Source: Candidatus Nitrosocosmicus franklandus
Lineage (GTDB): Archaea; Thermoproteota; Nitrososphaeria; Nitrososphaerales; Nitrososphaeraceae
DNA length: 64,000 bases
Direction of reading: 5' to 3'
Assembly: GCF_900696045.1 (NCBI RefSeq)
Contig: NZ_LR216287.1
Location: 1,655,854 to 1,719,853, forward strand
Position 1 is the stretch's first letter; each line of letters begins with the position of its first letter. Below the pieces are notes generated by a model. It saw only the letters and a program-made list of their open reading frames with translations. It was not told the origin of the DNA and did not search any database. Positions 37,806-52,285 of this stretch are shown in pieces. The translations under genes and the position numbers were made by a program.

Positions 37806-38273
37806 ATGATTACCATCAAATCTTTGAGTGGAATGATGCTCGTAACCACGGCATTGTTCTTAAGTGGGTTATCGCTGCAACAGTCAGCAGATGCGCAGCT
37901 ATTCGGAATTGGGAGTTGCATAGTTAACTGTATAGGTGGTGAACAAGGACCACAAGGACCACAAGGACCTCCAGGACCACAAGGACCTCCAGGACCACAA
38001 GGTGAAAAGGGTGATACTGGTGACCAAGGACCACAAGGACCTCCAGGACCACAAGGTGAAAAGGGTGATACTGGTGACCAAGGACCACAAGGACCACAAG
38101 GTGAACAAGGACCTCCAGGACCACAAGGTGAACAAGGACCTCCAGGCGATGATTGTCCAAACGTAAGTGGATTACATTCACCTGGAATTCCAATAATATT
38201 ACCGGATGGTGTACCTGTGTATCCAGATAATGGTGCAGAAGGAGTTTGTACTCCAAATCCACCAACACCTTAA
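37806..38273 (+). CDS. secreted collagen-like (Gly-X-Y) protein
   Basis: A 155-residue protein with a signal peptide (about residues 1-30, ending SADAQ), a short CIVNC segment, then 24 uninterrupted Gly-X-Y triplets (about residues 45-116). The triplets are rich in GPQ, GPP, GEQ, GEK and GDT, the composition that forms bacterial collagen triple helices without hydroxyproline. A C-terminal Pro-rich tail contains two Cys that may link chains. It is probably a cell-surface or extracellular trimeric rod. The triplet DNA is itself repetitive, so copy number may vary. Its codon use is clearly unlike the flanking genes because of the repeat. Confidence 0.88.
37938..38153 (+). repeat. collagen-type tandem repeat DNA
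   Basis: A 9-bp based repeat of GGACCACAAGGACCTCCA-type units encoding 24 Gly-X-Y triplets. A larger block ([18 protein letters not shown]) occurs twice in tandem, 51-54 bp apart. Confidence 0.85.
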
Positions 38274-38597: not shown

Positions 38598-39267
38598 GGC
38601 TCTGTTCAGTTAACGATAAGCCTATAGCTTGAAAGCATTCCATTTCTTTTATGCTTACTAGAAACAGAACGCCTTCAAAGTATGTATATTATGGGTTGCA
38701 TTTGTACTTTTCAGGCCTATCGTTAAGGAAAGCCTCGGAAAGATTATCTCAGATATACAAGAGAAATCACGTTTCCATCTGGAATTGGATTCAAAAATAC
38801 AGGCCTCAAAAATTGAAAGCATCAAGAAGAAGAATTCTAGAATATATTGTAGACGAGACCATGTTAAAGGTGGGATCAGAGTTTGTCTGGCTCTGGGTTG
38901 CAACTGAACCCGAAAACAGGCAAATTCTCGCACTGTCTATCTCTAAAGAAAGAAACATGTTTGTAGCTGAAAGATTCATTTCAGATTTAGTCAAGATTCA
39001 TGGAATTCATCCAGTTTCGACTGATGATAGAGGTACTTGGTATCCAATGGCCTGTAGATTCTTAAATCTCGATCATCACATTCATTCCTCTCTGGAGAAA
39101 AGTCTGATTGAAAGAAAGATGCAATACATAAAGGATAGAACCGAAAGTTTCGATGACTACTTTCCTTGTAGAATAAAGAATTGCAAGTTAAAGCATGTAC
39201 GGAATTGGCTGCGGCTCTTTGTAGACTATCATAACAATGAAATAAAACATATTAAGTGAACAGAGCC
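38598..39267 (+). mobile_element. IS6-like insertion sequence, copy A (intact transposase)
   Basis: A 670-bp element. The terminal inverted repeats are GGCTCTGTTCAGTTAA (left) and TTAAGTGAACAGAGCC (right), 16 bp with one mismatch. It encodes one full-length transposase. The flanking octamers (TTTTTACT and TAATAGTA) do not match, so no target duplication remains, unlike copies B and C. Confidence 0.9.
38651..39259 (+). CDS. IS6-family DDE transposase
   Basis: A 202-residue transposase. An N-terminal HTH region (SGLSLRKASERLSQIYKRNH-VSIWNWIQKY) is followed by a DDE catalytic core: Asp in YIVDETMLKVG, Asp in VSTDDRGTWYP and Glu in SLIERKMQYIKDRTESFDD. Copies B and C show STDGGTWYP and STDDGGTWYP at the second Asp, so the DRG here is a local change that may affect activity. 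It is the only uninterrupted transposase of the three copies. Confidence 0.9.
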   Translation: MLTRNRTPSKYVYYGLHLYFSGLSLRKASERLSQIYKRNHVSIWNWIQKYRPQKLKASRRRILEYIVDETMLKVGSEFVWLWVATEPENRQILALSISKERNMFVAERFISDLVKIHGIHPVSTDDRGTWYPMACRFLNLDHHIHSSLEKSLIERKMQYIKDRTESFDDYFPCRIKNCKLKHVRNWLRLFVDYHNNEIKHIK

Positions 39268-41401: not shown

Positions 41402-42069
41402 GGCTCTGTTCAGTTAACAGGTTTTAATTCCTTGTTGTGATAGTCGACAAACAGGTTCAACCAGTTTTTTACGTGTTTTAGTTTGCAGTTCTTTAGCCTG
41501 CAGGGAAAGTAATCATCGAAACTTTCAGTTCTGTCCTTGATATACTGCATTGTTCTTTCAATCAAGTTTTTTTCATAGGAGGAATGGAGATGGTGTTCTA
41601 ATTTAAGGAATTGACAAGCCATGGGATACCAAGTACCACCATCTGTTGAAACTGGATGCTTTCCATAGTCTCTGACTATGTTTGACAGAAACCGTTCCGC
41701 AACAAACATGTTTCTCTCCTTAGAAATGGATAGTGAGAGAATTTCCTTACTTTTCGCATCTATTGCAACCCATAACCATGTGTATTCTGAACCAACCTTA
41801 AGCAATGTTTCATCTACAATGAATTCACATATCCTTCTTTGTTTTGTCTTGATAATCTTAGGTTGGTACTTTTGAATCCAGTTCCAGATAGTGACATGAT
41901 TTCGTTTGATACATCTGAGACAATCTTTCCGAGGCTTTTCTTAAAGATAAACCTGAAAAGTACAAATGTAAGCCATAATACACATATTTTGAAGGTGTTC
42001 TGTTTCTAGTATTCATAAAAGAGATAGGACATCTTCAAGCTATAGACTTGACGCTAAATGAACAGAGCC
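41402..42069 (-). mobile_element. IS6-like insertion sequence, copy B (frameshifted, 8-bp target duplication)
   Basis: A 668-bp element in reverse orientation, with GGCTCTGTTCA ends at both sides. It is flanked by perfect 8-bp direct repeats TTTAATAG (41394-41401 and 42070-42077). The octamer length is the IS6-family target duplication, so this is a clean, simple insertion. Confidence 0.9.
41410..42016 (-). pseudogene. frameshifted IS6-like transposase (copy B)
   Basis: Starts at an ATG at 42016 (MNTRNRTPSKYVYYG) and runs in frame through SLRKASERLSQMYQ. A 1-bp insertion relative to copy C in the ATGTATCAAACGAAATCATG stretch then breaks the frame and leads to an early stop. The catalytic C-terminal part is open again from 41805 (MLKVGSEYTWLWVA) with STDGGTWYP and the Glu in NLIERTMQYIKDR. 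It diverges more from copies A and C than they do from each other in the C-terminal half. Confidence 0.85.
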
Positions 42070-43234: not shown

Positions 43235-43242
43235 TTTAAATA
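43235..43242 (+). promoter_or_regulatory. TATA box of the PepSY/Met-His-rich gene
   Basis: TTTAAATA lies 23-30 nt upstream of the ATG at 43265, the standard archaeal TBP site for a leaderless mRNA. Confidence 0.55.
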
Positions 43243-43264: not shown

Positions 43265-44002
43265 ATGAACCTAAACTTTTCTATAGTGGTGGTTTCCCTA
43301 GCTTTGTTATTTAGTTTTGTACTAGTCTTTACATCTACGACAAATACTCACGCGCAGGAATTAAATAATACTATGAATCATCAAACATTTGGCAATCCAG
43401 ATGACATGACAATGAATGATAACATGTCTATGGGGTCCACTTTTGGAACAAGTGAAAAAGAACACGATATAACTAGCTCAGTTTCCATCTTTCAACCTAT
43501 AATCAATGCATTCAAATCAATGATAAAAATCAATATCAATGATGCTATCACATCGGCACAAGACACCGTAGGAGCAAATGCTACTACTGTCGCTGCTTTC
43601 CTTCACCCTGAAAAACAGTATATCGTATATAACATAATTACATTGGACTCCAGTGGAACTATACACAGAGTACTAGTAGATCCTGGGAACGGTAGCGTCT
43701 TAGATGATAAACAAGTATCCTTTATGGAATTGATGAAAATGGTTCATGGCGATGGCATGATGGGCGGCCATGACAAGATGATGGGACCAGAAATGGGTAT
43801 GGGCGGCATGATGGGCGGCCATGACAAGATGATGGGACCAGAAATGGGTATGGGCGGCATGATGGGCGGCCATGACAAGATGATGGGACCAGAAATGGGT
43901 ATGGGCGGCATGATGGGCGGCCATGACAAGATGATGGGACCAGAAATGGGTATGGGCGGCATGATGGGCGGCCATGACAACTCGTACGGACCATGGAATT
44001 GA
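43265..44002 (+). CDS. secreted PepSY protein with Met/His-rich repeat tail
   Basis: A 245-residue protein. A signal peptide (about 1-30, ending THAQE) is followed by a Met/Asn-rich linker. A PepSY-type domain (about 85-150: DAITSAQDTVGANATTVAAF, IVYNIITLDSSGTIHRVLVDPGNGSVL) comes next. The tail has four perfect 17-residue repeats MMGGHDKMMGPEMGMGG and a partial fifth. Clustered Met and His with no Cys is typical of extracytoplasmic copper(I)/silver binding. Ammonia oxidisers depend on copper enzymes, so copper storage or delivery is a plausible inference. Confidence 0.8.
   Translation: MNLNFSIVVVSLALLFSFVLVFTSTTNTHAQELNNTMNHQTFGNPDDMTMNDNMSMGSTFGTSEKEHDITSSVSIFQPIINAFKSMIKININDAITSAQDTVGANATTVAAFLHPEKQYIVYNIITLDSSGTIHRVLVDPGNGSVLDDKQVSFMELMKMVHGDGMMGGHDKMMGPEMGMGGMMGGHDKMMGPEMGMGGMMGGHDKMMGPEMGMGGMMGGHDKMMGPEMGMGGMMGGHDNSYGPWN
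43754..43980 (+). repeat. 51-bp perfect tandem repeat
   Basis: Unit starts at 43754, 43805, 43856, 43907 and 43958 (last one partial, diverging after about 23 bp). The units are identical at DNA level, including third codon positions, so the array is recent or kept uniform by recombination. It is GC-rich against the AT-rich surroundings. Confidence 0.95.
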
Positions 44003-45436: not shown

Positions 45437-45859
45437 ATGAATTACGATATTGTCGCTTTAACAGAGGCGCTAGATAAAATCCTTAGACCTTATATTGAAA
45501 TCCTTACTTTTGCTATTGATATTGCAGCTGGTATCGTCATAGCTGTATCTGCGTTTGTTGCTCTAATTTCATTTCTTAGAATACTGACAAAATCAAGGGC
45601 AATACAAACACACGAAAAAGAAACCATTAGACTAAGATTAGCAAGAGGAATGCTTCTTGCATTGGATTTTGAAGTAGGAAGCGATATCTTGAAGACAATT
45701 CTTCTCCCTGGAATTAACGAATTGGCAATACTTGCTGTGATAGTTGGGATTAGAATCGGCCTTAGTTGGTCATTATCAAAAGAAATAGAGAGACATCGAA
45801 TTAGCAAAATTAAAATGGATACAGACGCTGACGTGTCAAAGAACAATAATGAAAGTTAG
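45437..45859 (+). CDS. DUF1622 family membrane protein, first of pair
   Basis: A 140-residue protein with three membrane helices (about 20-50, 68-85 and 93-112) and the DUF1622 signature RLRLARGMLLALDFEVGSDILKTIL. Length is normal for the family. Function is unknown; such proteins are small integral membrane proteins found in many soil microbes. It lies 33 bp upstream of a second, divergent DUF1622 gene in the same direction. Confidence 0.82.
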   Translation: MNYDIVALTEALDKILRPYIEILTFAIDIAAGIVIAVSAFVALISFLRILTKSRAIQTHEKETIRLRLARGMLLALDFEVGSDILKTILLPGINELAILAVIVGIRIGLSWSLSKEIERHRISKIKMDTDADVSKNNNES

Positions 45860-45892
45860 TATCAACTTTCTTATATAATTGGTAGTTGAGAA

Positions 45893-46324
45893 TTGCTACT
45901 TAATTTTTCTGAACTCCTTATCGAAATCCTAACGACCATAACATGGGTACTAGATTTTATCGCCGTAACAATAATTGCAGTTTCTGTATTCCAAGCTTTG
46001 ATGTCTAAGGCCGTTGCAGGTCATCAATATGATTTTTCTTTCTCGTCTCTTTTGAATGGACATCTTGCTCAAAAAAAGAAAAAGTTTTTTAGAAAGAAGG
46101 AAATGAGGGGAAATAATTCGTTAAGGGGCCTAGTTAGAGGGCTATTATTGGCGTTGGAATTCGAATCTGCAAGTGCAATTATCAAATTAGGAATTTTTAT
46201 GACCAATATTACAATATTATCTGAACCTATATCTACCAATCTGGGTAATTTTGCTTTCTTTGTTGGTATTTTTGCACTAAGAATAGTATTAAATCAATCC
46301 TTAAGAAGATTTAATACCAGTTAA
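45893..46324 (+). CDS. DUF1622-like membrane protein, second of pair
   Basis: A 143-residue paralogue of the gene just upstream, from a TTG start. It has a membrane helix at about 15-38, a basic insert (QKKKKFFRKKEMR) absent from its partner, then the family core SLRGLVRGLLLALEFESASAIIKLG and a last helix near 118-136. Low identity between the pair suggests an old duplication and possible heteromer formation. The basic loop could contact lipid head groups or a partner. Confidence 0.75.
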   Translation: MLLNFSELLIEILTTITWVLDFIAVTIIAVSVFQALMSKAVAGHQYDFSFSSLLNGHLAQKKKKFFRKKEMRGNNSLRGLVRGLLLALEFESASAIIKLGIFMTNITILSEPISTNLGNFAFFVGIFALRIVLNQSLRRFNTS

Positions 46325-49168: not shown

Positions 49169-49842
49169 GGCTCTGTTCAGTTAACGATAAGCCTATAGCT
49201 TGAAAGCATTCCATTTCTTTTATGCTTACTAGAAACAGAACGCCTTCAAAGTATGTGTATTATGGCTTACATTTGTACTTTTCAGGTTTATCTTTAAGAA
49301 AAGCCTCGGAAAGATTGTCTCAGATGTATAAAAGAAACCATGTCTCCATCTGGAATTGGATTCAAAAGTACAAGCCTCAAAAGCTGAAGTCAACTAGAAG
49401 AAGAGTTCTAGAGTATATAATAGATGAGACCATGTTGAATGTGGGATCAGAGTTTGTCTGGCTCTGGGTTGCAACTGAACCAGACAGAAAACAGGCAAAT
49501 TCTCGCACTGTCTATCTCTAAAGAAAGAAACATGTTTGTAGCTGAAAGATTCATTTCAGATTTAGTCAAGATTCATGGAATTCATCCAGTTTCGACTGAT
49601 GATGGAGGTACTTGGTATCCAATGGCCTGTAGATTCTTAAATCTCGATCATCACATTCATTCCTCTCTTGAGAAAAGTCTGATTGAAAGAAAGATGCAAT
49701 ACATAAAGGATAGAACCGAAAGTTTCGATGACTACTTTCCTTGTAGAATAAAGAATTGCAAGTTAAAGCATGTACGGAATTGGCTGCGGCTCTTTGTAGA
49801 CTATCATAACAATGAAATAAAACATATTAAGTGAACAGAGCC
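49169..49842 (+). mobile_element. IS6-like insertion sequence, copy C (frameshifted, 8-bp target duplication)
   Basis: A 674-bp element with GGCTCTGTTCAGTTAA and TTAAGTGAACAGAGCC ends, flanked by perfect 8-bp repeats TTTACAAT (49161-49168 and 49843-49850). Its first 85 bp and last 350 bp are almost identical to copy A. The stretch at about 49253-49331 matches copy B instead, so it is a mosaic. Confidence 0.92.
49222..49834 (+). pseudogene. frameshifted IS6-like transposase (copy C)
   Basis: The N-terminal part is open at 49222-49521 and the catalytic part at 49439-49834. A 4-bp insertion relative to copy A (GAACCAGACAGAAAACAGG against GAACCCGAAAACAGG, near 49485) breaks the frame. The catalytic half keeps STDDGGTWYP and SLIERKMQYIKDR. 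It needs transposase from another copy to move. Confidence 0.88.
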
Positions 49843-51346: not shown

Positions 51347-52285
51347 TTATTGCTGGGCTGCTGCGTTATTACCAGTATTGTTCTGGGTTTGTGTGTTTAC
51401 ATTATTTCCTGATCCAGCTGTGTTACCCCCAGAAGCTACACCACTGTTTTGGTTAGAGGTTTGTGATTGGCCGATACTTTGGGTAGCTTGGTTACCTCCG
51501 CCACTACCACTACCACCACTTTGGGCTGCTGCGTTATTACCAGTGTTTGTTTGACTCTGGGTGTTTTGGTTATTGCCTGAGCCTGTTGTATCGCCACCAG
51601 AAGCTACACCACTGTTTTGGTTAGAGGTTTGTGATTGGCCGATACTTTGGGTAGCTTGGTTACCTCCGCCACTACCACTACCACCACTTTGGGCTGCTGC
51701 GTTATTACCAGTGTTTGTTTGACTCTGGGTGTTTTGGTTATTGCCTGAGCCTGTTGTATCGCCACCAGAAGCTACACCACTGTTTTGGTTAGAGGTTTGT
51801 GATTGACCGATACTTTGGGTAGCTTGGTTACCTCCGACACTACCACCACCTTGTTGTGCCAGTGCATTATTTCCACTATTTGCTTGGTTTTGAGCATTCA
51901 AATTATTGCATGATACAAATGTTCCTGTTCCTGAGACACATAACGCGTTTTGGTTAGAGGTTTGTGATTGGCCGATACCTTGATTAGCAGTATTACCATT
52001 GTCATCATCATCATCATCGCCACCTTGTTGTGCCAATGCGTTATTACCTGTATTTGTTTGACCTTGAGCGTTCAAGTTATTGCATGAAAAAAGAGTACCG
52101 TCACCAGACACACAAATGCCCAATTGAGTAGAAGCCTGTGATTGGCCGATACCTTGATTAGCAGTGTTTGTTGTAGCAAATGCGTTCATGGTCATAGAAG
52201 CTGGACCTAAGAGAAGTATGAAAGAAATCGCTAAAACTGTTGATGTAATTAATGCTCTGTTCACATTAACGATAATATTCATCAT
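51347..52285 (-). CDS. secreted Asn/Gln/Ser-rich repeat protein, amyloid- or curli-like
   Basis: A 312-residue protein. A signal peptide (about 1-38, ending AFA) is followed by two modules with one Cys pair each (CVSGDGTLFSCNNLNAQ and CVSGTGTFVSCNNLNAQ). An Asp-rich spacer (GGDDDDDDNG) separates them. Three further modules of 56 residues are nearly identical (NQATQSIGQSQTSNQNSGVA, then GNNQNTQSQTNTGNNAAAQS, then Gly/Ser linker). Regularly spaced Gln/Asn and Ser with Gly turns resemble curlin-type beta-solenoid or amyloid repeats, though I cannot assign the family. Extracellular matrix or surface adhesion is the likely role. Confidence 0.75.
   Translation of the reverse strand: MMNIIVNVNRALITSTVLAISFILLLGPASMTMNAFATTNTANQGIGQSQASTQLGICVSGDGTLFSCNNLNAQGQTNTGNNALAQQGGDDDDDDNGNTANQGIGQSQTSNQNALCVSGTGTFVSCNNLNAQNQANSGNNALAQQGGGSVGGNQATQSIGQSQTSNQNSGVASGGDTTGSGNNQNTQSQTNTGNNAAAQSGGSGSGGGNQATQSIGQSQTSNQNSGVASGGDTTGSGNNQNTQSQTNTGNNAAAQSGGSGSGGGNQATQSIGQSQTSNQNSGVASGGNTAGSGNNVNTQTQNNTGNNAAAQQ
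51355..51840 (-). repeat. 168-bp tandem repeat in the secreted repeat protein
   Basis: Units of 168 bp (56 codons) repeated about three times. The two interior units are almost identical, and the outer one (51355-51520) has drifted at several sites. Confidence 0.88.

Follow-up and report, generated by a model that had tools for sequence, protein, structure and literature searches.

We describe a family of proteins, found across soil ammonia-oxidizing archaea, in which a PepSY scaffold carries a hypervariable tail of methionine-rich repeats. The member analyzed here is encoded by the genome of Candidatus Nitrosocosmicus franklandus C13, in a stretch of 64,000 nucleotides on contig NZ_LR216287.1 that is referred to below as the window, and whose positions are used throughout. 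Its tail is a perfect tandem array rich in Met and devoid of Cys. By analogy with the silver-binding protein SilE, we assign a probability of about 0.5 to the prediction that it is a PepSY-scaffolded, disordered buffer of Cu(I) or other soft metals. Literature searches that combined PepSY with archaeal ammonia oxidation, and Met-rich proteins with Thaumarchaeota and copper, returned nothing on this family. The features of the gene are as follows.

43235–43242, forward strand: TATA-like box TTTAAATA, some 26 bp upstream of the start codon (direct sequence reading)
43265–44002, forward strand: whole ORF of 245 aa, PepSY protein with a Met-repeat tail, predicted to be exported
43265–43357, forward strand: predicted Sec-type signal peptide (hydropathy), cleavage probably near A30/Q31
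43358–43480, forward strand: Met-containing linker beginning NPDDMTMNDNMSMG, modelled with low confidence (pLDDT ∼38–47)
43490–43747, forward strand: PepSY-fold core, residues 76–161 (pLDDT, structure matches, and Pfam in relatives)
43754–43980, forward strand: tandem array, 51-bp unit × 4.45, 100% identical, encoding MMGGHDKMMGPEMGMGG (TRF and exact unit check)
43979–43999, forward strand: C-terminal cap NSYGPWN after the array (translation)

The array consists of four identical 51-bp units (43757–43807, 43808–43858, 43859–43909, and 43910–43960), each of which is translated into MMGGHDKMMGPEMGMGG, and a partial fifth unit (MMGGHD). TRF and an exact check of the units both reproduced this arrangement, which had been reported in a first-pass annotation of the window. 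Identity at period 51 continues without a break from 43754 to 43980; the observed run is 176, whereas shuffling the bases of the window 20 times gave a longest run of 10. A search of the complete genome with the DNA pattern of the motif gave four occurrences, each of them inside the array. Every unit contains MGGHDKM (M-GG-H-DK-M), that is, an MxxHxxM motif. There are 26 Met and 6 His among the last 86 residues, and the maximum density of 22 Met per 60 aa compares with ≤ 8 in 451 background ORFs, comprising the other ORFs of the window and those of the relatives’ loci. Because the assembly of the C13 genome combined Illumina reads of 147 bp with early MinION data (PMC6776761), the copy number of the array, which spans 227 bp as assembled, is to be read as plausible; perfect repeats were also present in the assemblies of other species.

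The most hydrophobic segment of the protein begins at residue 5, no transmembrane-like segment follows it, and the A30-Q31 pair is invariant across the orthologue alignment. Based on this hydrophobic N-terminus and the invariant pair, we infer that the protein is exported. The position of the TATA-like box suggests that the transcript of the ORF is likely to be leaderless. No Cys occurs in the 245 residues, and the AlphaFold model assigns a pLDDT of 39–52 to the tail from residue 171 onward, which predicts disorder. The Met residues of the linker are kept in the close orthologues, and aromatic C-terminal ends similar to that of the cap are frequent among the relatives. The annotation’s description of a tail dense in Met and His and free of Cys, on a protein predicted to be exported, was borne out, and this tail is probably disordered.

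The assignment of the core to PepSY, also made in the annotation, agrees with the predicted fold and with the Pfam matches of the relatives. The window protein itself scored 12–14.8 bits against the Pfam PepSY profile (PF03413), under the cut-off of 24, and 13 of 14 relatives matched this profile (best E-value, 4.2e-05). In an AlphaFold2 model built with 37 sequences, the core comprises two helices, four strands, and one helix, with a pLDDT of 87–97 over residues 81–160. The best structural matches found with Foldseek and VIA-align were PepSY proteins: CD1622 (4exr; Z 11.0, rmsd 1.4, 65 residues aligned), YpmB (2gu3; Z 9.3), YpeB (5boi; Z 8.2), and UipA (7ath; Z 7.1, with 65 residues aligned at rmsd 3.0). 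Since all the Foldseek E-values were > 0.001, the claim of a PepSY fold combines three lines of evidence, namely the order of the matches, their Z scores, and the profile of the family, and taken together these place the modelled core in the PepSY alpha/beta fold. CD1622, YpmB, and YpeB share the core fold with the window protein and differ from it in architecture; the comparison here covers the core.

Relatives of the window protein occurred in 56 of 70 Nitrososphaeraceae genomes (E ≤ 0.001), and 17 genomes of the wider order outside Nitrososphaeraceae gave weaker matches. In scans of genome contigs, the single sequence detected no relatives, and the alignment of cores did. PepSY homologues are also present in N. 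viennensis (for example G042:C1:2265286–2265681). The layout, for which the annotation knew of no described protein, is thus not unique. The orthologues in genomes G008, G005, and G010 are 61–63% identical to the window protein, and in a tree of 92 cores these three (L004, L005, and L006) group with it with a support of 100/100. Among 93 distinct family ORFs, the cores could be aligned and the tails were divergent. The tails range from 9 to 120 aa beside a conserved core and include Met/Gly repeats, Tyr/Gly/Met types, and His/Gly types without Met; Cys is nearly absent from them, and Gly is as abundant as Met. A Met fraction of 20–45% is maintained in many tails, and the order of the units is not.

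We also analyzed the tandem repeats of the family, defining a tail as Met-rich when it had ≥ 14% Met and a length of ≥ 25 aa. Tandem repeats were present in 20 of 50 Met-rich tails, for which shuffles led us to expect 0.11, and in 0 of 32 Met-poor tails (Fisher p = 9e-6, to be taken as a guide because related sequences are not independent). The 20 arrays have periods of 5–19 aa, and their DNA copies are 96–100% identical. The array of G008 (13 aa × 3.8) uses its own codons, and its unit, MMGQGNMMGPEMG, resembles that of C13 but lacks His, as do several other Met-rich tails. Near-identical DNA within a species, together with different units between species, indicates recent duplication or homogenisation. 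The 17-residue unit of C13 is thus a recent local expansion and not a conserved module. The Met-rich label required 13 changes on the core tree, compared with 30.7 for shuffled labels, and we infer that Met-richness is a recurrent and labile property of the family. The annotation had taken the perfection of the repeats as a possible sign of selection, and selection on this unit is not supported by units that differ between species and that in G008 have no His. Its alternative suggestion, that metal capacity is easily changed, agrees with the variation in the period and length of the arrays.

What the tail does may be considered first by comparison with known metal-binding proteins. SilE of Enterobacteria is a periplasmic sponge that is disordered when free and folds upon binding six Ag+, which it binds through MxxH and HxxM motifs; PcoE, a related protein, can take up as many as nine Cu+ (PMC5008109, PMC10080550). 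The window protein has in common with them Met/His motifs spaced at 3–4 residues, together with predicted export and predicted disorder, and its tail is by analogy a candidate counterpart of these chains with multiple soft-metal sites. It differs in having no sil or pco operon, a folded PepSY domain, and a tail that is dominated by Gly and Met, has few His, and is made of exact tandem repeats. A comparison of the tail with solved structures gave no match, the query being of low complexity; the likeness to SilE described here is one of motifs. Two further proteins show parts of the layout. UipA, a PepSY protein of Microbacterium, binds uranyl and iron, and its extracytoplasmic PepSY fold, like that predicted for the window protein in type, is tied to metal binding. 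UipA contains a transmembrane segment as well as two PepSY domains, and it is on an acidic face of this fold that uranyl is bound (PMC8963506), whereas the candidate ligands of the window protein sit in its tail. In CopI of Rubrivivax, disordered His/Met segments have been proposed as a copper buffer (PMC13308877), but they are joined to a cupredoxin-like protein instead of a PepSY domain and form no tandem array.

Under the proposed mechanism, the protein would work outside the membrane as a sponge for copper(I) or another soft metal, with a small folded PepSY domain bearing the disordered tail. Each 17-residue unit would supply the thioethers of seven Met together with a single His, and the MxxHxxM motif is part of this set of ligands. 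The analogy with SilE and CopI leads us to expect that soft metals bind to the tail, and with its 26 Met and 6 His it is possible that several ions are held per tail; if these are Cu(I) ions, they would be exchanged rapidly. Such a buffer would either keep copper at hand for the enzymes of ammonia oxidation that depend on it or blunt copper surges, and tandem duplication of the Met/Gly-rich unit would alter the number of sites. The proposal joins a predicted export, a putative metal binding, a presumed metal, and a presumed direction of the benefit to the cell.

The ligand spacing, which is like that of SilE and PcoE, fits the annotation’s view that the tail would suit Cu(I). The genomic context speaks against this view, as does the absence of His from the repeats of G008 and from several other Met-rich tails. 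Copper gene families were absent from the 25 most frequent families neighbouring the family members. The copper-limitation motif of Nitrososphaera viennensis occurred in the window at chance level, with no occurrence near the gene. None of the genes beside the window gene is a conserved neighbour, so it does not lie in a metal-resistance operon, and conserved synteny was set aside as a functional clue. The spacing of His and Met was likewise discarded as proof of metal sites: the enrichment at 3–4 residues was strong relative to shuffles, but Pro-Met pairs were equally enriched, which reflects the spacing of the Met blocks.

Among the other explanations, the tail might be a flexible, mildly hydrophobic Met/Gly-rich segment of low complexity in a thick wall or aggregate matrix, and thus part of a structural coat or biofilm protein with no metal role. 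C13 has no S-layer and a very thick wall (PMC11559005), it continuously forms cell aggregates (PMC12448741), and the window encodes other exported low-complexity repeat proteins (37806–38273 and 51347–52285). The equal abundance of Gly and Met, and the tails rich in Gly and His that lack Met, would also suit such a role. However, a plain spacer would not need the costly Met that many tails keep at 20–45%, and we consider this explanation unlikely, although the best of the alternatives.

The tail could also be nearly neutral, growing by replication slippage in ATG-rich DNA with little effect, on a PepSY regulator whose core binds a protease or sensor as DbfQ does. PepSY proteins serve as regulators elsewhere, DbfQ being an example (PMC12714742), and M50 peptidase genes adjoin some relatives. 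A conserved core beside tails of such different lengths, and repeats whose near-identical DNA marks them as young, also speak for this reading. Yet the reading frame and the Met-rich composition have survived repeated turnover across many lineages, and neither a protease gene nor a sensor gene was seen next to the window gene; we regard this explanation as rather improbable. A sink for oxidants, in which surface Met is converted into sulfoxide by peroxide or by reactive nitrogen species from ammonia oxidation, would suit the high extracellular Met count, including that of tails without His, but is very unlikely, since the genome gave one match each for MsrA and MsrB and the MsrA ORF has no obvious export signal, so that repair of Met outside the cell is not evident.

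The metal-buffer reading can also be set beside the copper physiology of C13. Among three nitrifiers, C13 had the highest copper content per cell and resisted copper deficiency, and the authors suggested storage mechanisms for this copper (PMC13003922). The Cys-rich protein Csp (DUF326, PF03860), which goes up under copper limitation in N. viennensis (PMC7785015), is a proposed copper reserve of ammonia oxidizers, the role proposed here for the window protein, but it binds copper via many Cys, whereas the window protein is free of Cys and has a disordered-looking tail. Our search for Csp recovered an 18-Cys protein of 118 aa in G042 that fits the description of the N. viennensis Csp, which indicates that the search works, and the same search found no intact Csp in C13. 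Instead, a remnant of 28 residues with an internal stop was detected (L162; G000:C1:1891321–1891410, minus strand), with 71% identity to the Csp of G007; relatives carry intact copies.

The loss of Csp in C13 alongside a Met-repeat tail is suggestive. The idea that Csp loss strictly accompanies the expansion of tails was rejected, because in G013 and G014 Csp was not detected and yet the tails are short. It is distinctly improbable, in our estimation, that Nitrososphaeraceae use the family of PepSY-anchored Met-repeat tails as extracellular stores of Cu(I), tuned by tandem duplication that changes how much they hold, and that in C13 these stores replaced the lost Cys-based Csp. The gene is nevertheless a specific, testable candidate for the copper store proposed in C13 by the 2026 study (PMC13003922), and it bears on how ammonia-oxidizing archaea gather and hold copper for their energy metabolism. 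The natural variation of repeat number within the family can be compared with copper tolerance.

Several minor observations were made in the family and in the window. A Met-poor subgroup of the family (L128, L129, L131, L134, and L144) lies near apparent M50-type membrane peptidase genes, and this branch could have a protease-linked role. Of the two exported repeat proteins mentioned above, the one at 37806–38273 (forward strand) is collagen-like (PF01391), with GPQGPP repeats encoded by perfect 54-bp DNA repeats, and the one at 51347–52285 (reverse strand) is of low complexity and contains a 168-bp × 3 tandem repeat. Similar ORF fragments at 38651–39259 (forward), 41410–41805 (reverse), and 49222–49834 (forward) are apparent copies of one transposase, some of them seemingly broken. 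Two adjoining DUF1622-like membrane proteins are encoded at 45437–46324 on the forward strand.
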